NCBI RefSeq assembly: GCF_029714325.1
Contig: NZ_CP121666.1
Location: 8,914,501-8,978,500, forward strand
Length of the DNA: 64,000 nucleotides
Origin: Bradyrhizobium sp. CB1717
GTDB taxonomy: Bacteria; Pseudomonadota; Alphaproteobacteria; Rhizobiales; Xanthobacteraceae
Direction of reading: 5' to 3'
Shown here in pieces: positions 1,410-12,990 of the stretch (the stretch's first letter is position 1; every line of letters starts with the position of its first letter). Position numbers and translations under genes: made by a program. The notes beneath the pieces are model-generated. The model was not told the origin of the DNA, searched no databases, and saw only the letters and a program-made list of their open reading frames with translations.

Positions 1410-2462
1410 TTACGTGACTGTCCACACCAGCGGCGGACGGCCGCCGGCCGTCGGAAGCAAGTGCACGCCGATGTGTCGCCCGCATCCCGCAGCGAGCCCT
1501 TCGAACAATCCCTCCAGGACCTTTGCGCAGGCGCGGTGATAGTCGGCGACGTCGTCCATCAGCTTCCAGCTCTGCTGGCGGATTTCGCACGTGCCTTCGG
1601 ATTGCGCCATCTCGGCCGCATCATCCTGCGCAGCGAACAGTGCGTTCAGGAACGATGCGAACTCGCCCGCGCCGCCGCGGGTCATCGACAGCGCCGCGGC
1701 GACCTCGTCGAAATATTGCATGCCGATCAGCTTGCCGGTGAGGTGCAGCAGATAGCCGGCGTCCTCCGGGCCGAACAGCTGCACCAGCACGGGCGCGGCG
1801 GTGCGGACATATTCCATCGCGTAGTTGCGATAGGCCTTTTCAAGCCGCGGTTTCGGCCAGCTCTCGACCGGCAATGCCGGTGCGGTCTTGGCGTCGAACA
1901 ACGGCGCCTCCAGATGCCGCGCAAAGACGAGGCGCTGATCGAGCTCGAGCGGATGGTCGTATTGATGGTAGTAACCTTCGAGCCCGTCCTGGCCGTCGAC
2001 GCTCTGCTTGGTGCAGACGAAGCCGAGGCGGAGATCGCCCAGCGCCGCGCCGTTGTTGGCGTGCCAACCACGCAGCATCGCGCGGCTGACGTCGCCCGGC
2101 ACGCCGCAGATCGCGGTGCCCTTCCAGATCCAGCGCGGCGGCGGATAGCGGATCCAGGCTTTGCGGTCGCTCTCATACATGTATTCGACGTGGACGCCGC
2201 CGATCCAGTTGGAGAGATAGTGATATTGCGCGGCAGCCACCGCCGGCGGCAGATGGCTGAGCCCGAGCTTCTGCAGGCCCGGCAGGAAGCGTTCCTGCTG
2301 CTGACGGCGGAAGACGCGGAAGACGAACTCCGCCGCATCCGCCGTGCCGCGGCGCGTGACGACGGTGAGGATGAGTCCCGTGAAGTAAGCGTGACAGAGA
2401 TCGGCGACCGCGCGCCAGCGCTTCCATTGGGCTTCGTGCGCGGTGTCCGGCGCGGTGGTCAT
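1410..2462 (-). CDS. Conserved-looking hypothetical protein, about 350 aa
   Basis: I do not recognise the family. The product is soluble, with no signal peptide or membrane helix, rich in Trp, Tyr and His, for example HYLSNWIGGVHVEYMYE and RYPPPRWIW. It keeps the local codon usage throughout and has a long uninterrupted frame. The ATG at 2462 is preferred over a GTG two codons upstream, because GGGAG sits 5 nt before the ATG. It stands alone, separated from the MATE gene by a repeat and from the accessory block by about 250 bp. The aromatic-rich central part suggests an enzyme, but nothing catalytic can be named. Confidence 0.7.
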   Translation of the reverse strand: MTTAPDTAHEAQWKRWRAVADLCHAYFTGLILTVVTRRGTADAAEFVFRVFRRQQQERFLPGLQKLGLSHLPPAVAAAQYHYLSNWIGGVHVEYMYESDRKAWIRYPPPRWIWKGTAICGVPGDVSRAMLRGWHANNGAALGDLRLGFVCTKQSVDGQDGLEGYYHQYDHPLELDQRLVFARHLEAPLFDAKTAPALPVESWPKPRLEKAYRNYAMEYVRTAAPVLVQLFGPEDAGYLLHLTGKLIGMQYFDEVAAALSMTRGGAGEFASFLNALFAAQDDAAEMAQSEGTCEIRQQSWKLMDDVADYHRACAKVLEGLFEGLAAGCGRHIGVHLLPTAGGRPPLVWTVT

Positions 2463-2722
2463 GTTCACTCCCGATCGTTGCTGCGATCGAGTGTGTCATT
2501 GCAGGGAAAAGAACGCAATTGAGAGAGGAAAGACCGCCTCAGCCGCACGCCCTGTCCGGCCGACGACGTCCTCGACGGCGATAGCGTCCCATTCCCGAAC
2601 TGACGTCAGATCAGGCGCGCCTTTCGACGCAGCCGCGAATGCATCTATTTCCTGTCACACAATTTGTGATAGCATTACCGTCTACGAAGTTGCAGGGGGC
2701 GGTTTAATTTGGAGCATTAGCC

Positions 2723-5161
2723 ATGTCACGCGAAGCCGATATTTATGAACTGCGAGATTTGATCGCCCGGCTACGGCAGGAACTGATTGCGAAGGAAACG
2801 GCGGCGAGCGACGTCGCACCAGATGCAGAGATGCTCGCTGTCGAGATATCGCAACGCAGGCGGTATCTGGACGAGCTCATGTCGGATCTGCAGGGCCTGT
2901 CGAGCGCCCCCGATGCGCCGGCGCCGGCACAGGACGATGCGCCGGCGGCGGACGCCGCGCCGCAGGGACTTGCGATCATCATCGGCCACAGCTCGGAAGG
3001 TACGGACAAGGGCGCAATCGGGCTGTCGCCTCCTTTTCCGAGCACGGCTGAGCAGGGTCGCGCCGAATACTTCTGGAACCAGGATCTCGCCGCACGAATT
3101 GAGGCCATTGCGAACACGCGCCAGATTCGCGTCAAGACATTTCGTCGCCGGGAGAATGGCGGCGTCGGCATTCGCGAGGCGTATCGTCTTGCCGCGGAGT
3201 GGAAACCACAGGCCTCGGTCGAGCTTCATTTCAACTCCGCGGGGCCCACGGCGCGCGGAAGCGAGACGCTGTTCGGACGGCAAGGTTCGCGGCCGTGGGC
3301 GCGAGCGCTACAGGACCGAATGGTCGCCCTTTATGGCCGTACCGGCACGCTCGATCGCGGACTGAAAGACGCCAACGTCGAAGGGCGCGGCGTGCTCAGC
3401 CTGACCAATGAAGTGCAACCGTCGGCCCTGATCGAGCCGTTCTTCGGCTCGAATATGGAAGATGCCTCCCTGGGGATTGCCCGCAAGGAGGGTCTCGCCG
3501 AGGCGGTCGTGAACGCCTTTGCAACCTTCGTCGGCCTGCCCGTGCCGTCGGCCGACGCCGTTACGGCGGACGCGCCCGCGGACACCGGCCTTTGGGACTC
3601 GCTGCGCGCGGCCTATGCGGCAATGAGTATCGAGCATCCGCATCTGAAAGCGATCACCTTCGCCCAATGGGCCCTCGAGTCGGGTCATGGCGCCTCCCTA
3701 CTCGCGAAGAACCATCTCAATTTCGCGGGAATGAAGTGGCGGCCGTTCATGAGCGATGTCGCAAGTAAAGTATGGTACAATGCGCATGATGGCGGCGAGT
3801 TTTATTGCGCATTCGCATCGCTTCAGAACTTTGTCGCCGGCTACTGGCTTCGATTGGATCGTCATCCGAGCTATCATGGGTGGCGGCAGCACACCGCCAC
3901 TCCCGAAGCTTTCATCAATTTCATCGGGCCGATCTGGGCGCCCCCGTCCGCAAATCCAAACTATGTGGCGAAGGTCCTCGACCTGTTCGAGGAATATCGC
4001 AACGTCTTCGACACGATGGCCGACGCGACTTACGTGGTCGCGGCTGAGCCAAGCGATGAGGATTTTTGGGTCGATCGCACGGAGGACGCGATTGCTCTTC
4101 GACGGAATGGGGAAACCGCGGACGCCGCGGCGCGCAGGGCCGATCACGAATCCGGCGTCTCCTGGGCTTCGGATGCCAGTTCATGCGACTACGCGCATCT
4201 CGGCGCCGGCCTGCCGGTCGGCATGCAGTTCTCGTTTACGGCCGCGGATCTGGAATTGCTTTGCACCCTCAACGATTTTCCGGTGCAGGATTCCGGCGGC
4301 ACGCCCGTTCTGTTCGGCTTGCGCGGTGCGGGGATCGTGCAAGGCGGATCGAGCAGCGATGGCAGCTGGCGCGATGAGGTCATTCTGAAGAACCTCAGGC
4401 CCAACCATCACGAAATCCGATGCGTGATGGGCGTTTGGGATCGGCAACTTGGCAAGATTGCGGTGTATCCGGCCTCCACTGTTCCGAACGCAGAGGCGGT
4501 CGTATCCTGGTTCCAGACGCAGGAGTCAGGCAACCTGCTCGCAACAGGCTTTTATCGGTACATTTGCGGGGAGCATAACGGCCGACCTGGCTGCTTCCTG
4601 TTGCGCAAATCCATATCCGAGAAGCGCATCGTGATCGTTCGCCGGTCCGAAGATGACCTGATTTACGAGAGCACCGATAAGGTGCACAAGACGGCTCCGG
4701 GCGACAACATCCATCCGTCGTTCTCCAGCGAGACGAGCTGGTTTTCATCGTTCGGGTGTCAGGTGGTCGTTGGCAGCGCGACCTCATCCGGAGCCCATTC
4801 TGGACCTTGGGCGAGATTCCGCCGCTCGGCGGGGTTGACCGATGGCGACGGCGATCCCGGAAAGCCCTTTATGTACGTGCTGCTGACCGGACAGGAAGCC
4901 CTGCAAGCGTCCGACGCGCGCCGGCGCAATCTTCCTCTCGCCGATCCCGAGATACGCGCAATGCGGAGGCTTCGATTCGGATCGACGAGCCCGCGAGTGG
5001 CTGCGCTGCAGGCGCAGCTTGGGCAATCCAACGACGGCGATTTGGGTCCAGCGACGGCCGAAGCCCTGCACGCGAAGCAGCGATCACTGGGCAATCGCAG
5101 TGACGGGATCTACACGCCCGCCCTTGACGCTCAGCTCGAATGGAACGTCTACGCAACCTGA
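2723..5161 (+). CDS. Multidomain peptidoglycan hydrolase: amidase_3 + glucosaminidase + unknown domain + PG-binding domain
   Basis: An 812-residue cell-wall lytic protein. Residues 5-55 look like a coiled coil. Residues 82-270 are an AmiC-type N-acetylmuramoyl-L-alanine amidase: IIIGHSS with His89, ELHFNS with His169, and the catalytic glutamate in LIEPFFG (about 238). Residues 290-430 match a FlgJ/LytG-type glucosaminidase, with Glu319 in QWALESGHG and NHLNFAGMKW. Residues 450-745 are a beta-rich domain I do not recognise. Residues 755-800 are a peptidoglycan-binding type 1 domain (PRVAALQAQLG, DGDLGPATAEAL). No N-terminal signal peptide is visible, which is odd for an enzyme with a periplasmic substrate. 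The start has GGAG about 9 nt upstream. It opens the accessory block and precedes the caspase gene by 219 bp. Confidence 0.85.
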   Translation: MSREADIYELRDLIARLRQELIAKETAASDVAPDAEMLAVEISQRRRYLDELMSDLQGLSSAPDAPAPAQDDAPAADAAPQGLAIIIGHSSEGTDKGAIGLSPPFPSTAEQGRAEYFWNQDLAARIEAIANTRQIRVKTFRRRENGGVGIREAYRLAAEWKPQASVELHFNSAGPTARGSETLFGRQGSRPWARALQDRMVALYGRTGTLDRGLKDANVEGRGVLSLTNEVQPSALIEPFFGSNMEDASLGIARKEGLAEAVVNAFATFVGLPVPSADAVTADAPADTGLWDSLRAAYAAMSIEHPHLKAITFAQWALESGHGASLLAKNHLNFAGMKWRPFMSDVASKVWYNAHDGGEFYCAFASLQNFVAGYWLRLDRHPSYHGWRQHTATPEAFINFIGPIWAPPSANPNYVAKVLDLFEEYRNVFDTMADATYVVAAEPSDEDFWVDRTEDAIALRRNGETADAAARRADHESGVSWASDASSCDYAHLGAGLPVGMQFSFTAADLELLCTLNDFPVQDSGGTPVLFGLRGAGIVQGGSSSDGSWRDEVILKNLRPNHHEIRCVMGVWDRQLGKIAVYPASTVPNAEAVVSWFQTQESGNLLATGFYRYICGEHNGRPGCFLLRKSISEKRIVIVRRSEDDLIYESTDKVHKTAPGDNIHPSFSSETSWFSSFGCQVVVGSATSSGAHSGPWARFRRSAGLTDGDGDPGKPFMYVLLTGQEALQASDARRRNLPLADPEIRAMRRLRFGSTSPRVAALQAQLGQSNDGDLGPATAEALHAKQRSLGNRSDGIYTPALDAQLEWNVYAT

Positions 5162-5380
5162 GTGCCGGTCGGTGACTCAAACGCGGGGTGGCGAGCCGAT
5201 ATCGGACCTGCCACCCCGGGCGACGATGGCCAGATCTCGATGGGTGGGGCGTCTGACCGCATCGTAGGATTGACATTCGCAGGCATAAGAACTCAACTGG
5301 CGCGGGTACTTTAAGCTCACTATTATCTTGGCGGCGGTCCGCCGACCGGCCATGACCTTTGAAATTAGAGATGATCGCGC

Positions 5381-6535
5381 ATGCCCGCTGATACGGCGCT
5401 GGTGCATCAGGTTGACTTGGGCGGACGACCGGGGACCCACGTCATCGCAATCGGCATCGGCACTTATGATTATTTGAAGGGCGGCAGCGGTCCGCTCACC
5501 AAGCACCACCTCGACCTGGAACAGCTCAGTTCGCCGCCTGTTTCGGCCAGGGCAATTGCCACCTGGTTTATCCAACATTTCGACTGCAGCGAACTGCCGC
5601 TGGCAAGCGTTTCCCTCGTCCTGTCGGAGCCTCAACCGGCATCCTTCGACAAGGGCAACCTCGGACTACGGATTGTACCGAACGGGACAATCAAGGACGT
5701 CGGCGATGCGATCGCGGCATGGATCGAGCGGGCCGACGTTGATCCGAAAAGCCGGGTCATCCTTTATTTCTGCGGTCACGGGCTCAGTGGTGGAACGCAG
5801 AATCTCTATTTGATGCGAGATTATGGGCAGGACAAGAACGACCCCATGAGCGGCGCATTGAACTATACGAATTTCGTGCTGGGGCTCGAATGCCGCATTC
5901 CGAGCACCCAGTTCCTGCTGTTCGACGCGTGCCGTTCAACCCCCGAGATCGCCGAGTGGAATCAACAGGGCGGTCAACGCATCTTCGCCGTCGATCGGGA
6001 TATCCGGCTTGGCATCAACGAGCCGATGCAGCAATGTCCAGTGTTCTCCACCGAAATCGACCGCAAGGCGCTCGGCCGGCCCGACGAGCCGAGCCTGTGC
6101 GCCAGCGCCTTCATCCTTGCCCTGAGGGGCGCAAGCGCGAAAAAGGAAGGACAGGACTGGTACGTTACGACTCATCGGATGGTTGAAGCGCTGACCGATC
6201 TCCAGAACCAGGCACTCGTCGGAGCAGGAAGTCTCCAGCAGAACGCCGACGCGAACAGAACCGCCAGGATCCGCCTTCGCAAACTGGCGAATGACCCTGA
6301 AATACCGGTCTATGTCGGGCTGGACGACGAGGCGCGTCGCGCCAACACCATGATTTCCGCCATTCGCGGTGCGCCGCCGCCACGGACGATCAGCGATCGC
6401 CTCACGATGTTGTCACCCGGCGAATACGTGTTCCGCGCAAGTCAGATCGCGGGTAACAAGCTCGCAGAAGTCACCGAAGTCGTGTGGCCCACGTTCTCCA
6501 ACGTGCTACTGAAGGTCTCGACATGGGACGCTTAG
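5381..6535 (+). CDS. Caspase-like (peptidase C14) protein
   Basis: A 384-residue protein with a caspase/metacaspase p20-like core at about residues 20-250. The catalytic histidine is in LYFCGHG (His133) and the cysteine in LLFDACRS (Cys184), with the usual spacing of about 50 residues. It also keeps the HVIAIGIGTY first strand typical of bacterial C14 proteins. Residues 250-384 form a C-terminal extension ending in a beta-rich segment. There is no signal peptide, so it should act in the cytoplasm. Bacterial caspase-like proteases are often proteolytic executioners in conflict or cell-death systems. It overlaps the next gene by 13 nt, implying translational coupling. The start ATG has only a weak GAGA upstream. 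Confidence 0.88.
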   Translation: MPADTALVHQVDLGGRPGTHVIAIGIGTYDYLKGGSGPLTKHHLDLEQLSSPPVSARAIATWFIQHFDCSELPLASVSLVLSEPQPASFDKGNLGLRIVPNGTIKDVGDAIAAWIERADVDPKSRVILYFCGHGLSGGTQNLYLMRDYGQDKNDPMSGALNYTNFVLGLECRIPSTQFLLFDACRSTPEIAEWNQQGGQRIFAVDRDIRLGINEPMQQCPVFSTEIDRKALGRPDEPSLCASAFILALRGASAKKEGQDWYVTTHRMVEALTDLQNQALVGAGSLQQNADANRTARIRLRKLANDPEIPVYVGLDDEARRANTMISAIRGAPPPRTISDRLTMLSPGEYVFRASQIAGNKLAEVTEVVWPTFSNVLLKVSTWDA

Positions 6536-7968
6536 ACATCAGGCTCGACAAGAAGCACCTTGGCACGGACCTCGAACTGGGCGTCGTCGCCGACGTGCTT
6601 CAGATAAAGGATTTTCAGGGGAAGTTTCCAGAGGCACCGTTCGAGCAGGAAGTGGTCATTCCGGCTGGCGCAACGGGTTTTCGGCGGGTGAACGTTCCGC
6701 CCGGGACTTACCGGATCGAGGCGCGACTTCCCTCCGGCGAGGTGATGTCGAAGACCCAGGAGGTCTCAGACAACACGGCGGAAGTCCCCGTCGTGTTCGA
6801 GCCCGCGGCTTCGCCCCACGAGTGGTTGAGTTGGCAGCGGCTCGCGGGGAACGTACCGTCTGAAAAGGAATACGAAGAATTCCTGAAAGATATTGCGGGG
6901 AAAATTTCAAAGGCGGCCAAGTCCAAGGATGTCAGGATCGACATCAGTCCAACGGTCATCGGATGGGCCGCCGGCCATCTCCGGCAACTCCACGTGCGGG
7001 TCAAGGCGCTGCTTGAAGGAACGTCCGCAGCGCCGACGGCCGGAGACGACCCGGCCGAAGCTGATGCCACAGCAGAGCCCACGACCGCGGATTTCGAGCT
7101 CCTGCAGGCGAACCCGTCCGATGGGACCGCGTTGTGGAGCACGCTAGGCTCCCATGCGGCATGGACCGAATGGCGGAGGTCTGCATCGCCCTATCCGGGT
7201 TGCTCATTCGTGCGCAGGGATGATCGCGCGCTAAGCCTCTGGCAGGTTACTCAGTCTGATTATCAAAAGAGCATCGTCGGGACACTCCGCGGGATGCTGC
7301 CGCTCCGTTGCCTGGCCGCGATGCGGCGCGGCGATGGCGTCGACGTCATCCTGCTTCCGATTCCATGGGCGTTCGAACCGGATCCGGACAAGACCCCCGT
7401 GACAATCGAAGTCCTGCGCGAGGCAGGCGCGTCAGCAGCCGGCCGGACGACCGTCATGGTCCAGGATCCGAGCCTCGGCGGCCTGCTGATGTATCTCAAC
7501 AGCAACAAGATCGGCAGCGCATCCACCGTACTGGCCGAGGCCAGTCAAACCGGCTTGATCAATTCTCTGCTCGCAGACAAGCGAAATCCGCTCGCAGCCT
7601 GCGCAGCAGGCTACGTTGCCATCGCCGGCCTGGCCGATAGCAATCGCGAGCAGTGGACGCAGTGGCTTGGGCTGTTGTCGCAATTTGCCTGGCTGCCGGA
7701 CGGAAACGTCATTCAGGCCGCGTACCTGCTGAAAACGGCCCGTTCAAAGTCAGAACTCGATGAGGCGCTCACCAGCCTGAAGAAGGCCTACGGAAAGGGA
7801 ATTCCGTTCTTTATCGCCGGCGTGCAGCATCTGCAGCAAGGCCTCTACTCCTTCAGCGAAAAGGATGCCGAGGCACGCCAGATGTACGAGTCGGTGACGA
7901 ACGTCGCATTGAAGGTCGACGCCAATCAGGTGTTCACGCTGCTCCGCCTTCCGTCCGAGCAGAACTAG
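6523..7968 (+). CDS. Unknown partner of the caspase-like protein (beta N-terminal domain + helical C-terminal part)
   Basis: A 481-residue protein starting MGRLDIRLDKKHLG inside the 3' end of the caspase gene (13-nt overlap); a start 13 codons upstream is possible but less likely. Residues 1-95 look like a small beta-sandwich (VNVPPGTYRIEARLPSGE resembles carboxypeptidase-regulatory or prealbumin-like folds). Residues about 105-180 are helical, and a low-complexity Ala/Asp/Glu linker lies near 190. The C-terminal half, from about 320 to 481, is Ala/Leu-rich and looks like a helical repeat or TPR-like array. No catalytic motif, signal peptide or membrane helix is visible. Its position makes it a likely regulator, sensor or substrate of the caspase; that is inference. 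Confidence 0.75.
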   Translation: MGRLDIRLDKKHLGTDLELGVVADVLQIKDFQGKFPEAPFEQEVVIPAGATGFRRVNVPPGTYRIEARLPSGEVMSKTQEVSDNTAEVPVVFEPAASPHEWLSWQRLAGNVPSEKEYEEFLKDIAGKISKAAKSKDVRIDISPTVIGWAAGHLRQLHVRVKALLEGTSAAPTAGDDPAEADATAEPTTADFELLQANPSDGTALWSTLGSHAAWTEWRRSASPYPGCSFVRRDDRALSLWQVTQSDYQKSIVGTLRGMLPLRCLAAMRRGDGVDVILLPIPWAFEPDPDKTPVTIEVLREAGASAAGRTTVMVQDPSLGGLLMYLNSNKIGSASTVLAEASQTGLINSLLADKRNPLAACAAGYVAIAGLADSNREQWTQWLGLLSQFAWLPDGNVIQAAYLLKTARSKSELDEALTSLKKAYGKGIPFFIAGVQHLQQGLYSFSEKDAEARQMYESVTNVALKVDANQVFTLLRLPSEQN

Positions 7969-8064
7969 AGCGCGATGAGATTTGGATGAATCATCATCGC
8001 ACTTTGGGTTGTTGTCTGCGCATGATCTTTCCGGAAAACCGCTTCGCACTTTTCCGGATCATAC
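7969..8064. repeat. Rhizobial intergenic palindromic element (RIME-like)
   Basis: This lies between the convergent ends of the caspase-partner gene and the astacin gene. It contains GCATGATCTTTCCGGAAAA and CACTTTTCCGGATCAT, arms that pair around a CCGCTTCG centre. The arrangement resembles the short mosaic palindromes widespread in rhizobial intergenic DNA. It may also act as a bidirectional terminator. Confidence 0.6.
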
Positions 8065-8115
8065 TTTAGCTGCTGACTGCGTCGCCGGCCGCGACATTGT
8101 CGCGGCCGCCTTGCG

Positions 8116-8895
8116 CTAGGGATACAATTCCTCGACCGCCTTGATATCTCCGGCACTCAAGCCGAGCCTCTGACCTATGTCGGGTTGACCAAAGACGGGC
8201 TCGATGGTCGCGCTTCCATCCCTGGAAAATGCGGTCTTCGGGTAGTGCATGATCGAGGCGTAGTCGTACGCCCCGAGGTCGATGCCGTCGTTCAGATGCT
8301 GGGTGAAATTGTGCTCCATGCCGGGTATCACGTTCTCCAGATGAACCCGGACGAACAGATCGCGGTCCCGCCGGCTCTGCTCGTGCCACAATCCGACGGT
8401 GTGGCCAATCTCATGGATGCAATTGCCCGTCGTGCAGTCCGGCCCGAGCGTGACAAACTGCTGCCCTTGCTGTCTGCCGACTGAGGAGGAGCACCCGCTG
8501 CCCGGCCGAAATGTCACGAAATCGTCCTGGTTGGTTCGCTGGACGAACTTGATCTTGGTCTTCTCGTGCCAATGCGCAATGGCTTCCGTCACCCGATTCT
8601 GGTTCGGCAAGTTGGGGGCGATCGTGTAGGGCACGGTCTTATCCGGCCAACGAAAGCGCAGCTCCTTGATGCCGACGCCGAACGTCTGGAAGCCGGCCAC
8701 TGTCGCCGCGGCGTTCTCGCGAATTTGGCTGGAGGTGGCCTCGACCTCCTGTGTCGGACCGAGATCGATGCAGCCCTCAGCGCGCGCCCGCCCTTCGATC
8801 TCGACATAAAGCACTGGACGGACACCGGCACCGTGAATTTTCACGAAGGCGGTCTTCACCTGAGTGCCCGAAACAAACTCCGCATTATCAGCCAC
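8116..8895 (-). CDS. Astacin-family (M12A) zinc metalloprotease
   Basis: A 259-residue protein with an astacin catalytic domain at about residues 75-259. The zinc motif is HEIGHTVGLWHE (His161, Glu162, His165, His171), followed by a Met-turn SIMHY (Met216, Tyr218). The four cysteines around CSSSVG and CTTGNC could form disulphides if the protein is exported. Astacins are endopeptidases, usually secreted with a signal and propeptide. Here the N-terminus MADNAEFVSGTQVKTAF has no signal, and the first 75 residues look like a small separate domain. It is the last of three minus-strand genes facing the caspase pair. Confidence 0.9.
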   Translation of the reverse strand: MADNAEFVSGTQVKTAFVKIHGAGVRPVLYVEIEGRARAEGCIDLGPTQEVEATSSQIRENAAATVAGFQTFGVGIKELRFRWPDKTVPYTIAPNLPNQNRVTEAIAHWHEKTKIKFVQRTNQDDFVTFRPGSGCSSSVGRQQGQQFVTLGPDCTTGNCIHEIGHTVGLWHEQSRRDRDLFVRVHLENVIPGMEHNFTQHLNDGIDLGAYDYASIMHYPKTAFSRDGSATIEPVFGQPDIGQRLGLSAGDIKAVEELYP

Positions 8896-9007
8896 GGGAC
8901 AACCTCTTTTTTCAAATTATGCTCTGCGCCCTTCAAATTTCAGCGCGCCCGACATTAGACCGATTTCGGATGAAGCGCAACCTGGGCATGCAGCCCGCCA
9001 CTTCTTC

Positions 9008-9355
9008 TCAATTAGATTGACGCGTCCAGAGCCGTGCAACAATCAGATGGTCTTGCGGAGGATCATGCGGCCGCCACGGATAGGCAACGACGGTTCCGAA
9101 CACGCATGCCCGTCCGGTTTGCAAGTGCTCTCCCTCCAAGCGCGCGCTCAAGATGTACTGCGCCCGCCGCTCGATGTCGTCGGGGACCGATATGCTGAAG
9201 CGACCTTCGTCCTCTCCGTGTTGCAACACGATCGGTCCCGTCGCGATCACCCGGGAACGCGCATCAGCAAGCGTCACATCTTCAAGCCGGACGATGCCGC
9301 GCAAAGCGCCGACTTCGCCACGATCAGTCACGCGCAGGGTTCCGGTGATTTCCAC
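9008..9355 (-). CDS. Small YbaY-like beta-domain protein
   Basis: A 115-residue beta-rich protein with no signal peptide or lipobox. It contains VRLEDVTLADARSRVIA and FSISVPDDIERRAQYILSA, which resemble the YbaY / type III secretion chaperone-like fold found in lipoproteins of the YscW group. It sits between the astacin and PGRP-amidase genes on the same strand, with gaps of about 110 and 70 bp. A binding or chaperone role for one of the neighbouring hydrolases is possible but not shown. Family assignment rests on pattern resemblance only. Confidence 0.55.
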   Translation of the reverse strand: MEITGTLRVTDRGEVGALRGIVRLEDVTLADARSRVIATGPIVLQHGEDEGRFSISVPDDIERRAQYILSARLEGEHLQTGRACVFGTVVAYPWRPHDPPQDHLIVARLWTRQSN

Positions 9356-9422
9356 AGTACATCAATGCTCCAGGGGAGCGCATCGCACGCGACGATGCGT
9401 CCCGATGTCGCAAGCGATCGTT

Positions 9423-10106
9423 CTACCGCGGCAGCGAGTTCAAGATCGCCGCCTCGTAGGCCGGATCGTGCTCAGGCAATTCTCCGGCATCCTCCGGCAT
9501 TGCATCCGCCTGCTCGGCACCGGCCCCGATCGCCTCGAAGATTTCCGCCCGACGCGTTTCCGACAGCACCGACGCCGCCGCGTCATTGCTCCCGCCAGCA
9601 TTTATGAATTCGCCGACCTTGTCGAGAATGTCCTGCTTGGATACCGCGCTTCCCGGACAGCTCTTGGTGGACATCTCGTTGTGGAATTTCAACGCCGATG
9701 CACTCAGATCGAACTTCTTCATCAGCGTCGCGATAACGAGGACGACTGTGTCGAGTTGGGCACCCGTCAACGGATCCTTGCCTTGGTCGAAATCGCCGAT
9801 CGTCTCGAACATGAAAACGCGCGAGCTGTTGTAGCCGGCTGCACTGGCGGGCGACATGTTCCAGGGGCGGCCCGTCCAGATTGTCCCGTCGGGCGCAAGC
9901 GACACGTGCTGGGCAATGTCGGACCAGTGGTTGGTGTTGACGTGATAGTCGTACATCGCCTGAATCGAGTCGACCCCGTGATACTGGCTGTGGTTCGGCC
10001 GCCAAGTATGATGCATGTGGATAAGAGTTTTCGCAGGCTGCCAGCCGAACTGCTGGACAACGTGCACGAATTCGGCCGGTTGCAGCTGCTTGAAAGGAGG
10101 TGCCAT
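9423..10106 (-). CDS. PGRP-fold N-acetylmuramoyl-L-alanine amidase (amidase_2)
   Basis: A 227-residue zinc amidase that should cleave the bond between N-acetylmuramic acid and L-alanine. The ligand set of the family is visible: the HMHHTW motif (His30-His33), His142 in LKFHNEM and Cys150 in KSCPG. The amidase domain covers about residues 5-165; the C-terminal 60 residues are acidic and Ala-rich. The start at 10106 was preferred over a site 22 codons upstream because GAGG lies about 10 nt before it. There is no signal peptide. Its start is only 27 bp from the start proposed for the divergent membrane-protein gene. Confidence 0.85.
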   Translation of the reverse strand: MAPPFKQLQPAEFVHVVQQFGWQPAKTLIHMHHTWRPNHSQYHGVDSIQAMYDYHVNTNHWSDIAQHVSLAPDGTIWTGRPWNMSPASAAGYNSSRVFMFETIGDFDQGKDPLTGAQLDTVVLVIATLMKKFDLSASALKFHNEMSTKSCPGSAVSKQDILDKVGEFINAGGSNDAAASVLSETRRAEIFEAIGAGAEQADAMPEDAGELPEHDPAYEAAILNSLPR

Positions 10107-10133
10107 CGCAGTATTACCTCGTTTGAAGGAAAT

Positions 10134-11759
10134 ATGGATTCTCACACGGCGCTCTCTTTGGTTGTGCGCCACGGCTCATTCTACTACATACTATGCCGTG
10201 GTGTCGCCATTGATGAGGGGGCTCATGGGCGGGTTCTGCCGACAGCATTGGTTGCTCTGGCGTGCGCTTGGGGCGACGCACAATATGTCGCGACAGCTTC
10301 GGATGGCACTGCCCAATTTCTGGGAGCATCACCGATCGAGATCGTCGGCGAGTCCGGCAAGCAGAGCGAAACACGGACCATCCGGTTTCAAACGACAGGC
10401 ACGCCGACCATCCAGTTTGTAACCACGGATCTGACACGCTCGGCCCCGGCAGGCCTTCCAGCGGCTTTGATCGATGGCGGGCAAGTCCGCATCACTCCGC
10501 TGGCTCCGCCGAAGACCGAAGTGACGGGCATCTCAGCCTTTGAAATCGCGATCAACGCGCTCCCGTCCCGATACGGCATCTTTTCCGGAGATATCGCGGT
10601 CCGCGTCAACGGCCAGCCGACCGAAACGATCAAGCTGAAACTTACCGTCCAATATCCCGCGGCGCAGCCGATCGCGATGCAGCCAGCCACGTTGAGCAAG
10701 GCGATGACTTCGGCGTCGACGGTCCTCCCCTGGTCTGCATTGCTTGCCCAACGTCCGGCGAAGGGGAGCTTTCCGATAACCATCCCGGGACTGCCTGAAG
10801 GCGTGGAGGTGACGGGGACGAGTGGCAGCGTGCAGTTGATGGCGGAAGGAGGCCAGGGACCGCTGACCGGGACGGCCGAGCTTCGATCCACCAGGCAAGG
10901 TGCGGTGCTTTTCGTCGATACTTCAGCTTCCGCACCGGGCAAATATACCGGCACAGGCGAGATCGCCCTGAACGGGGGGCAGCGCCGGCTGCTGCTCCCG
11001 GTGGACATTTCCGTCCGCAGCAATCCCTGGACTGTCCTGTTCCTGGTCCTGATCGGCGTTCTGCTCGGCCATCTTGCCAAGTGGTCCAATGAACGCGGCA
11101 GCAAGATCGTCTCGGCTCAGAACAGGATCTTCGAGATCGAAGCACGCGTGCAAACGGTCCGGGCGGAGTTCAGGGAATGGCTTGGACCGACCCTCAACGA
11201 CTTGAGAACGAAATTTCTGAGCGGCCAGTTCGACGCAATTCTTACGCTCGCGACCGCTGCAGACGCGCGCATCGCATTGACAGAGCGACTGGTCCGGCTC
11301 AGCGAGCGCGCCGAAACTCTCCGAAATAATGGAATCCTGGCCCGCATCTCTGCGCTGAGGGGAAGCATCTTGGGGTTGAGCGACATCGAGGACATACGTC
11401 CGACGGTGTCGTCCATCGAGACAGCCTTGCTCGCCGCTGAGACATTACCGGCGAACGACCAGGACCAGGCCGGCGACGACGTCGCAGCCCCGCGCCCGAA
11501 CGCTCAGGCGCAGCAACTGTCGCCGGGATCCCGGCTTCAGCAACGGCTAGTGGCATTCCGTGCGAAGGTTGCGCCAAAGCTTCAGGTGTTCCTGAAGTTC
11601 GCCGCCATCCTGCTCGTCGCGTTCATCGGCTTCGAGGCGATCTATCTCAACGGCTCGCAAACATTCGGCGCCAATCCAGTGACGGACTATCTGAGCGCAA
11701 TCGTCTGGGGATTGAGCGCCGATGTCGCGGCGCGTACGTTGCTGGCGCTGGGGCGATGA
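10134..11759 (+). CDS. Membrane protein with extracytoplasmic beta domains and cytoplasmic coiled coil
   Basis: A 541-residue protein of unknown family. Residues 35-50 (VLPTALVALACAWGDA) resemble a signal sequence, though it starts late, so the true start may lie downstream. Residues 55-290 are Thr/Pro/Gly-rich and look like two Ig-like or beta-sandwich domains. A membrane helix lies at about 298-315, and a helical, coiled-coil-like region at 316-435. After a Pro/Ala/Gln linker come a second helix at about 486-505 and a third hydrophobic segment at 516-540. This suggests a periplasmic sensor or adhesin anchored to an intracellular helical module. The proposed ATG has GAAGGA about 5 nt upstream. 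Confidence 0.7.
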   Translation: MDSHTALSLVVRHGSFYYILCRGVAIDEGAHGRVLPTALVALACAWGDAQYVATASDGTAQFLGASPIEIVGESGKQSETRTIRFQTTGTPTIQFVTTDLTRSAPAGLPAALIDGGQVRITPLAPPKTEVTGISAFEIAINALPSRYGIFSGDIAVRVNGQPTETIKLKLTVQYPAAQPIAMQPATLSKAMTSASTVLPWSALLAQRPAKGSFPITIPGLPEGVEVTGTSGSVQLMAEGGQGPLTGTAELRSTRQGAVLFVDTSASAPGKYTGTGEIALNGGQRRLLLPVDISVRSNPWTVLFLVLIGVLLGHLAKWSNERGSKIVSAQNRIFEIEARVQTVRAEFREWLGPTLNDLRTKFLSGQFDAILTLATAADARIALTERLVRLSERAETLRNNGILARISALRGSILGLSDIEDIRPTVSSIETALLAAETLPANDQDQAGDDVAAPRPNAQAQQLSPGSRLQQRLVAFRAKVAPKLQVFLKFAAILLVAFIGFEAIYLNGSQTFGANPVTDYLSAIVWGLSADVAARTLLALGR

Positions 11760-11853: not shown

Positions 11854-12990
11854 CTACACCCGAAAATGCTTCGATAGTTTGAGGCCCTGCGCCTGGTAGT
11901 TGGACCCGATGCGCTGGCCGTACATCGCGTCGGGGCGTGCCAGCATCTTCTCGTAGACGAGGCGGCCGACGATCTGGCCGTGCTCGAGGATGAACGGCAC
12001 TTCGCGCGAGCGCACCTCGAGCACGGCGCGCGATCCTAGCCCGCCCGCACCGGCATAGCCGAAGCCGGGATCGAAGAAGCCGGCATAGTGCACGCGGAAT
12101 TCGCCGACCAAGGGATCGAACGGCACCATTTCCGCGGCGTAATCAGGCGGTACCTGCACCGCCTCCTTCGAGGCGAGGATGTAGAACTCGCCGGGATCCA
12201 GGATCAGGCTGCCATCGGGACGGGCCGAGATCGGCTCCCAGAAATCCTCCACGGCGTAGCCGGCGCGGCGATCGACGTCGACGACACCGGTATGGCGCTT
12301 GGCGCGATAACCGACGAAGCCATTGGCTTTCTCGCCCGAGAGATCGACGGAGACGGCGACGCCGCCCGAGAGATCGGCATCGTCGATGTCGACGAGGCGC
12401 TCAGTGGCGTGCAGCGCATCGAGCTCGTCGGCGTTGAGGATCGCATCGCCGGTGCGGAAGCGCACTTGGCTGAGGCGCGAGCCCTCGCGCACCAAGACCG
12501 GGAACGTCTTCGGGCTGATCTCGGCATAGAGCGGGCCGTGATAGCCGGCGCCGATCATGTCGAAGCGGCGGGTTCCGTCGGCGATCACGCGGGTGAAAAC
12601 GTCGAGACGACCGGTCGAGCTTTTCGGATTTGCGGCTGCGACGATTTCGGGCGGCAGCGCCAGGCTCTCGAGCAGCGGCACGATGTAGACGCAGTTGGTC
12701 TCCAGCACCGCGCCGTCGGCAAGGCTGAACTCGTGCAGCTTCAATTCGTCGATGCGCTCGGCCACCGTGGCGCCGGGCCCCGGCAGGAAGCTGGCACGGA
12801 CGCGATAGGCGATGTCGCCGAGACGCAGATCGAGGCTGGCCGGCTGGATCTGGCTTTCGACGAAATCGTATGCGGGCAGGATGAGACCTGCCTCCGCCAT
12901 CGCCGCGATCATGCGGTCGGGCAGGATACCATTGGCGTCGGCGGCGATCGTGAAGCTCAACCGGGGGTCCTCGTCAGGGGTCAAACGCAT
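11854..12990 (-). CDS. dcd: Two-domain 2'-deoxycytidine 5'-triphosphate deaminase
   Basis: A 378-residue protein of the long alphaproteobacterial Dcd-like family, roughly twice the length of the about 190-residue classical enzyme. The N-terminal half has the dUTPase/Dcd trimer motif NPKSSTGRLDVFTR (about 120-133), and the C-terminal half repeats a Dcd-like fold with HYAGFFDPGFGY. Dcd converts dCTP to dUTP for thymidylate synthesis in the cytoplasm. The gene is divergent from metZ, with the SAM-II element between them. The start follows the long open frame; no strong ribosome site is visible. Family assignment is confident; whether both halves are catalytic is not clear. Confidence 0.82.
   Translation of the reverse strand: MRLTPDEDPRLSFTIAADANGILPDRMIAAMAEAGLILPAYDFVESQIQPASLDLRLGDIAYRVRASFLPGPGATVAERIDELKLHEFSLADGAVLETNCVYIVPLLESLALPPEIVAAANPKSSTGRLDVFTRVIADGTRRFDMIGAGYHGPLYAEISPKTFPVLVREGSRLSQVRFRTGDAILNADELDALHATERLVDIDDADLSGGVAVSVDLSGEKANGFVGYRAKRHTGVVDVDRRAGYAVEDFWEPISARPDGSLILDPGEFYILASKEAVQVPPDYAAEMVPFDPLVGEFRVHYAGFFDPGFGYAGAGGLGSRAVLEVRSREVPFILEHGQIVGRLVYEKMLARPDAMYGQRIGSNYQAQGLKLSKHFRV

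Follow-up and report, generated by a model that had tools for sequence, protein, structure and literature searches.

Introduction

Among described systems, the closest to the locus considered here is Canu, reported in 2025, which by the account in PMC12799240 comprises the caspase CanA, CanB, and CanC, a pro-nuclease of the metallo-beta-lactamase (MBL) type. The CanAB complex is described there as turning CanC into an active nuclease (a DNase), and the system as protecting Escherichia coli against T4; the same account characterizes Canu by a C-terminal Ig-like domain on the caspase and by an antiphage activity that needs both enzymes. In alphaproteobacteria, trypsin and subtilisin domains that cluster with nuclease and wall-attacking ones make up the NucA-peptidase ‘System 3’, thought to be a proteolytic cascade in the outline given by PMC7159879. 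Here we analyze a block of genes at positions 2723 to 11759 of a 64,000-nucleotide stretch of the Bradyrhizobium sp. CB1717 chromosome (contig NZ_CP121666.1), referred to throughout as the window. In this block a caspase gene and an overlapping partner gene lie among genes for cell-wall and protein hydrolases and a membrane protein. It is probably a horizontally acquired antiphage module of the Canu type with changed effectors, in which the caspase would trigger other hydrolases. The original prediction, made from the sequence alone, knew of no described system with this gene set. For the core this no longer holds, as the caspase with its PF27295 partner has the layout of CanA and CanB; for the hydrolases in the place of CanC no precedent was found, as none of the papers listed by literature searches that excluded subscription papers, preprints, and supplements dealt with a caspase-partner module with wall hydrolases.

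The caspase and its partner

The window belongs to a 9.23-Mb single-contig genome (G000) of a Bradyrhizobium close to B. huanghuaihaiense. The partner protein is 98% identical to the B. huanghuaihaiense copy, and the locus L009 is a near twin of the window. Domain scans found every gene that had been named for 2723 to 11759, and the His/Cys dyad of the caspase, reported as intact, was confirmed in place and is retained in 32 of 32 aligned sequences. Against the Pfam model Peptidase_C14 (PF00656) the caspase scores 20.5 bits with a cut-off of 21.4, which it passes only when its neighbours in the frame are counted. The genome as a whole holds 17 places with a caspase domain, the one in the window being the weakest match of these.

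The partner was first taken to have an unknown fold. Its overlap with the caspase gene stands, and the protein can now be assigned to a family: it has no match in the Pfam copy used, and 72 of 73 of its homologues carry the precomputed Pfam entry PF27295. Structure prediction suggests a transthyretin/CnaB-like (beta-sandwich) N-terminal domain followed by TPR-like C-terminal helices. Sequence searches of the PDB returned a single match for the caspase (E 2.3) and a single match for the partner profile (E 0.43), both taken as noise.

In a profile scan of 40 partner loci, all but L069 had a caspase that adjoins the partner or is fused to it (39 of 40), with profiles built partly from the loci that they scored. 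Some loci are not independent: L010 and the shorter L056 come from one strain (60 of 72 sampled 60-mers shared), L061 and L150 from one plasmid (65 of 65), L075 and L112 are near duplicates, and L009 is the near twin of the window described above. In five loci (L062-L064, L070, and L072) the match is weak, and the caspase and partner stretches share or adjoin one frame. The pair spans proteobacteria, actinobacteria, and a Lokiarchaeota metagenome-assembled genome, and it is present in 16 of 265 Bradyrhizobium genomes when weak matches are counted. The Lokiarchaeota contig has a complete set of caspase, partner, and MBL genes (L019:8805-12404), a candidate for which contamination is possible.

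The gene directly downstream of the pair encodes an MBL-fold hydrolase in 24 of the 40 loci. The PF27295 partner is also common to these 24, where it is likened to CanB by layout and predicted folds, and the combination of caspase, PF27295, and MBL is, by analogy, taken to be Canu. It is very likely that the pair in the window is related to CanAB. Two of the pair-associated MBL proteins, scanned against PADLOC, matched LmuA (E 5.7e-67 and 7.1e-66), Avs1a (6.6e-41 and 1.4e-41), and RTasMBL (4.1e-38 and 3.9e-39). Four enterobacterial records (L145-L148) have the MBL gene, with the caspase and partner not within reach. A Canu-like locus on a Bosea plasmid (L149:5485-14206) has caspase and partner in one frame, the MBL gene, and a second caspase gene, followed by genes annotated as lysozyme, amidase, and M23.

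Genomic setting of the MBL-bearing relatives

The relatives with an MBL gene lie on conjugative plasmids in 4 of the 5 plasmid regions first examined, and the plasmid-borne MBL relatives are annotated Avs1a or adjoin HamA or ABC-three-component genes. Neighbouring open reading frames of 200-1300 aa within 6 kb were compared with PADLOC at 18 of the 24 MBL loci. The 113 used (of 122, nine being dropped for size: all seven of L077 and one each of L013 and L015) matched 86 models at E ≤1e-10; 71 control proteins, comprising 38 window genes and 33 from other loci (four flanking partner loci) and not matched for species, matched 9. Ten chosen neighbours were also scanned singly, of which eight were positive: IetA and, weakly, IetS in L012, IetS in L057, E1-E2/JAB in L058 and L059, LmuB in L075, SspB in L076, and HEC-05 in L078. 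The two negatives were one protein each from L078 and L016. E2-E1-JAB fusions, of a type known from ubiquitin-like conjugation in bacteria, are encoded near Canu-type loci at L058:12947-15190 and L059:16254-18482. By analogy with this setting and with Canu, the pair quite likely defends against phage.

Loci without the MBL gene

No MBL gene lies beside the pair in the window or in L009. A protein search of 13 genomes with one MBL query found none in the genome of the window, its sister G058, G640, G623, G001, G006, or G542; there were weaker matches distant from the pair in G588 and G024 (E 1e-4 to 6e-4) and in G608 (E 1e-9), and strong matches, as expected, in G036, G070, and G589. Conversely, none of the 24 MBL loci has an astacin or M10 gene by the profiles used here.

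Other enzyme genes accompany the pair at the non-MBL loci. The window and L009 have an amidase-glucosaminidase with a distinct C-terminal domain, an astacin, a YbaY-like protein, and a PGRP amidase. L010/L056 have a subtilase and a protein that shares this C-terminal domain and has an N-terminal half annotated as lysozyme in its relatives (the L010 protein had no Pfam match at E 0.1). L060 and L061/L150 have an M10/M12-type metalloprotease and a partner fused to trypsin and phospholipase D (PLD) domains, and L065-L068 and L071 have PLD, astacin, and a YbaY-like gene convergent to the partner gene. A stretch of 23 kb on a conjugative plasmid of Bradyrhizobium barranii (L150:2382-24903) carries the caspase, the partner-trypsin-PLD fusion, and two M12 proteases, together with a DNA/RNA endonuclease and S8 and serine proteases.

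A tree of caspase and partner sequences (36 rows) joins the window and L010 to the MBL-bearing rhizobial loci L075/L112 with starred support; it has five long branches, some of them joined to each other, and its deeper placements are unsure. At least three changes of effector class are needed on this tree, leading to wall hydrolases with the shared C-terminal domain, to metalloprotease with the trypsin-PLD fusion, and to PLD with astacin. The original prediction allowed for a chance assembly of unrelated genes. This is ruled out by the recurrence, in other genomes, of the caspase-partner pair and of the set of astacin, caspase, partner, and YbaY-like genes.

Astacins provide a separate view of this association. 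Nine of 265 Bradyrhizobium genomes have a LegP-type astacin (E < 1e-40), and in seven of them it is no more than 2 kb away from a partner gene. These seven represent three apparent placements: the present island (two genomes), L065-L068 with common flanks, and L071, which shares none of the flanking genes of L065-L068.

The island and its genes

The block is an acquired island of about 9.4 kb in the Bradyrhizobium chromosome, because its flanking genes are neighbours without it in four of the six relatives fetched (Table 1), with at most one small open reading frame between them. In the other two (L129 and L133) the left flanking gene was not found beside the deaminase gene. Third-position GC is 0.71-0.77 in the main genes of the block and 0.68 in the over-long reading frame of the membrane gene; beyond the block it is mostly 0.83-0.93, with some lower exceptions. 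The amidase, caspase, and partner genes face a convergent set of PGRP, YbaY-like, and astacin genes, and the membrane gene is divergent from the PGRP gene. A prophage or phage lysis cassette was considered and rejected: the partner (A1) and amidase-family (A2) alignments had no relatives among pattern-matched viral contigs, and no tRNA gene was found in the window.

Table 1. Features of the block and its flanks (positions in the window unless a locus is named).
Feature	Position	Strand	Remarks
Left flanking chromosomal gene	1410..2468	-	Outside module; adjoins dCTP deaminase gene in L130, L131, L132, L134
Amidase_3 + Glucosaminidase protein	2723..5161	+	Shared C-terminal domain (~residues 470-735), PG_binding_1 tail; no signal peptide
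C-terminal domain of the amidase protein	4133-5161	+	~Residues 470-735, ~265 residues; no Pfam model; 129 homologues
Caspase, CanA-like	5381..6535	+	His133/Cys184 intact; Peptidase_C14; PADLOC ‘caspase’ model E 3.3e-10
Partner, PF27295, CanB-like	6520..7968	+	Reading frame overlaps end of caspase gene
Astacin metalloprotease, LegP-like	8116..8895	-	Astacin 166 bits; HExxHxxGxxH intact; no signal peptide
YscW/YbaY-type small domain protein	9008..9355	-	25.3 bits
PGRP-fold Amidase_2	9423..c.10106	-	Domain scan; no signal peptide
Membrane protein	10134..11759	+	Extracytoplasmic domain, transmembrane ~292-310, helical cytoplasmic part, transmembrane ~485-503
Right flanking chromosomal gene, dCTP deaminase	11854..12990	-	Outside module; domain scan and neighbour comparison
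C-terminal domain beside caspase-DUF4384 protein (genome G660)	L101:11527-16124		The caspase-DUF4384 protein has a likely signal peptide

Some of the assignments in Table 1 carry limits. The PG_binding_1 match of the amidase protein is below threshold, and the astacin scores 292.2 bits against the NCBIfam equivalog of the Dot/Icm effector LegP, short of its cut-off of 300; under the curated definition this makes it a close relative from outside the family. The search for the PGRP amidase covered 23 genomes and gave two, both of the species of the window. The membrane protein has an extracytoplasmic domain and transmembrane segments, but its start is not at 9153: the gene begins at about 10134 or slightly later, and the stretch from 9153 is antisense to the PGRP gene and part of the YbaY-like gene. 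The signal-peptide start and the body of the gene lie in different frames in the window copy and in one frame in the near-identical strain L009. Relatives are found in 3 of 265 Bradyrhizobium genomes (the two of this species and one weak match), and there are six metagenomic homologues. A simple hydropathy check found no hydrophobic signal in the amidase, PGRP, astacin, YbaY-like, caspase, or partner proteins, so that the wall enzymes would have to stay cytoplasmic until membrane failure or a transporter gave them a way out.

The shared C-terminal domain

The C-terminal domain of the amidase protein is modelled with a predicted local distance difference test score (pLDDT) mostly above 90. Structural comparison, one of the checks proposed at the outset, yielded predicted domains for the partner; for this domain Foldseek gave no match at E ≤0.001, the best being an L,D-transpeptidase at E 0.19. 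The VIA-align match list was filled by the N-terminal helices of the protein and supports no claim of a new fold. A 42-row alignment has invariant His664 and Cys679 with Ser676/Gly678, which we take to resemble the YkuD signature; Pfam gave no support for this among the matches listed. Among the matches listed for 42 members at a loose limit of E 1, the N-terminal partners of the domain are Phage_lysozyme (12), Amidase_3 (5), Glucosaminidase (4), Endonuclease_NS (3), and, in one member each, C70 papain-like, S8, and M23.

Nine of 265 Bradyrhizobium genomes have the domain, and in three (G000, G058, and G640) it lies beside the caspase-partner pair. Elsewhere it is fused to Endonuclease_NS near another caspase, a metalloprotease, and a trypsin (G603, L098), or lies beside an S8-trypsin fusion (G551, L100), a subtilase (G033, L099), or the caspase-DUF4384 protein of G660. 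No protease was noticed near the domain gene in G001 (L097) or G632 (L104); in G001 the domain gene and the caspase-partner pair lie on different contigs. Because seven of the nine lie near a caspase, subtilase, or trypsin (a raw count, taken without a random-gene control), the domain fits the part of an adaptor to proteolytic switches. Three pairs of partner and C-terminal-domain proteins have identical longest-contig sizes in the protein database, which suggests that they are on the same contigs.

A [YDW]-R-E-x motif occurs within the first 70 residues of 63 of 120 homologues, which are related and not independent; it occurs in 0 of 120 at positions 201-270 and in 1 of 120 near the C-terminus, with 3.2 expected after shuffling. 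This arginine-bearing motif could be a docking or cleavage site and is a lead only. Prokaryotic caspase homologues are said, in the account of PMC6426788, to cut after positively charged residues.

Proposed mechanism and alternative explanations

Infection would turn the caspase-partner pair into an active, specific protease, in which the PF27295 partner would hold the caspase and may sense the infection. Its outputs in place of CanC would be the stored, signal-less amidase-glucosaminidase and the astacin, joined in this species by the PGRP amidase and the membrane protein. Cleavage by the caspase would most likely free or activate the stored hydrolases, and the infected cell would then lyse or stop growing. 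The membrane protein, or PLD at other loci, might breach the membrane for the wall enzymes. We infer from the combined evidence an antiphage role of the block, cleavage of effectors by the caspase, and lysis as its output, with either membrane damage or a transporter giving the wall enzymes access. The proposal that the hydrolases are caspase-cleaved effectors of the pair is held tentatively, at slightly less than an even chance. The earlier suggestion of a lytic or cell-death module acting in phage defence fits best; triggering by the membrane protein finds no support as a general feature, as this protein is in 3 of 265 genomes, one of them weakly.

Several observations weigh against a caspase-triggered antiphage module. 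No cleavage site was identified, and several effectors also occur without the pair: the C-terminal domain has no pair nearby in six of nine genomes (G603, G551, G660, G632, G033, and G001), and two of the nine LegP-type astacins (L081 and L082) have no caspase or partner within ~9 kb by the profiles. The C-terminal-domain protein of L104 looks secreted by eye. Conservation of the module does not extend to the PGRP and membrane genes, and the window copy of the membrane gene may be broken, to judge from its frame. The PF00656 score of the caspase is low, and we infer the identity of CanB with PF27295 from gene order and predicted folds. Defence neighbours, which the original prediction had named as a check, are found near the MBL-type relatives; none were seen beside the block in the window, where the neighbours look metabolic or house-keeping.

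Three other explanations account for parts of these data. The block could be a lysis module linked to stress or development, for programmed cell death or for attacking neighbours, which took over the Canu pair and no longer responds to phage. The signal-less wall hydrolases do look like stored lysis enzymes, the window lacks visible defence neighbours, and caspase homologues are discussed, in part of the literature, in connection with cyanobacterial cell death. However, the MBL relatives lie on conjugative plasmids (4 of 5 regions) and beside known defence genes, and an occurrence in no more than 16 of the 265 Bradyrhizobium genomes, counting weak matches, suits defence better than development, so that we regard this explanation as unlikely. 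Polymorphic toxins also show one domain fused to varied enzymes. The fusion of the C-terminal domain to nuclease, lysozyme, amidase, M23, papain-like, and S8 enzymes could accordingly be read as a sign of exported or injected effectors that hit other bacteria and are processed or released by the caspase, and the best model for the astacin is that of the secreted effector LegP, whose cut-off it just misses. An injected function had been offered as an alternative from the start. It has gained no positive support, as no secretion, spike, or immunity genes were noticed beside the partner loci (no systematic search was aimed at them), while similar sets of protease, nuclease, and wall-attacking domains are described, in the outline of PMC7159879, as conflict systems with proteolytic cascades; we consider it improbable.

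It is also conceivable that the pair defends alone or acts on a cellular target, the hydrolases being independent genes of the same hotspot. This would suit the C-terminal-domain enzymes, which often occur without the pair, and the PGRP and membrane genes, for which the searches found nothing outside this species except, for the membrane protein, one weak match and six metagenomic proteins. Yet the astacin, YbaY-like, and PLD genes stay with the pair at five other loci in two placements, and the partner of L060/L061 carries fused trypsin and PLD domains, which leaves little room for this explanation. The Canu-type module with changed effectors remains the reading that we favour.

A broader proposal, possible though rather doubtful at this stage, is that the caspase-partner switch has swapped its pro-nuclease for other hydrolases at least three times. 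Caspases would then be general triggers of stored wall, membrane, and protein hydrolases, forming a lytic, pyroptosis-like antiphage arm with the ~265-residue C-terminal domain as a plug-in adaptor. The loci are candidates for one switch with different weapons (peptidoglycan hydrolases, metalloproteases, and trypsin-PLD fusions) and suggest that bacteria replace one caspase-triggered weapon by another. Effector exchange by a bacterial caspase can be tested directly with these loci, which also draw attention to a domain without a name that recurs on wall hydrolases.

Comparison with known systems

The MBL proteins of Avs1, Lamassu, and DRT systems are related to the gene after the pair in 24 of 40 loci, but those systems use different sensors and trypsin-like proteases, and the window is without the MBL gene. 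The two-gene Caspase-EACC1 system, as outlined in PMC7159879, resembles the present loci in combining a caspase with variable effectors. With the EACC1-associated caspase model, whose cut-off is 140 bits, the window caspase scored 26.8, and membership was rejected; no EACC1-like small transmembrane gene was noticed. Three loci of the wider collection (L079, L098, and L150) resemble the NucA-peptidase clusters of System 3 in the same outline. The block itself was rejected as a member: no NucA-type endonuclease or trypsin was present in the nine window proteins scanned, and its core is a caspase with PF27295, which the System 3 account in PMC7159879 does not describe.

Canu remains the nearest comparison. 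The block is not filed as Canu because the CanC MBL pro-nuclease is absent beside the pair and undetected in the genome, where wall hydrolases and an astacin are found instead. It is probably near to Canu by descent and would work like it. As far as the account of Canu extends, both have a caspase gene with a partner gene after it, and TPR and Ig-like folds occur in the loci; an MBL hydrolase comes next in most relatives, for which the setting in defence islands and mobile elements is also alike.

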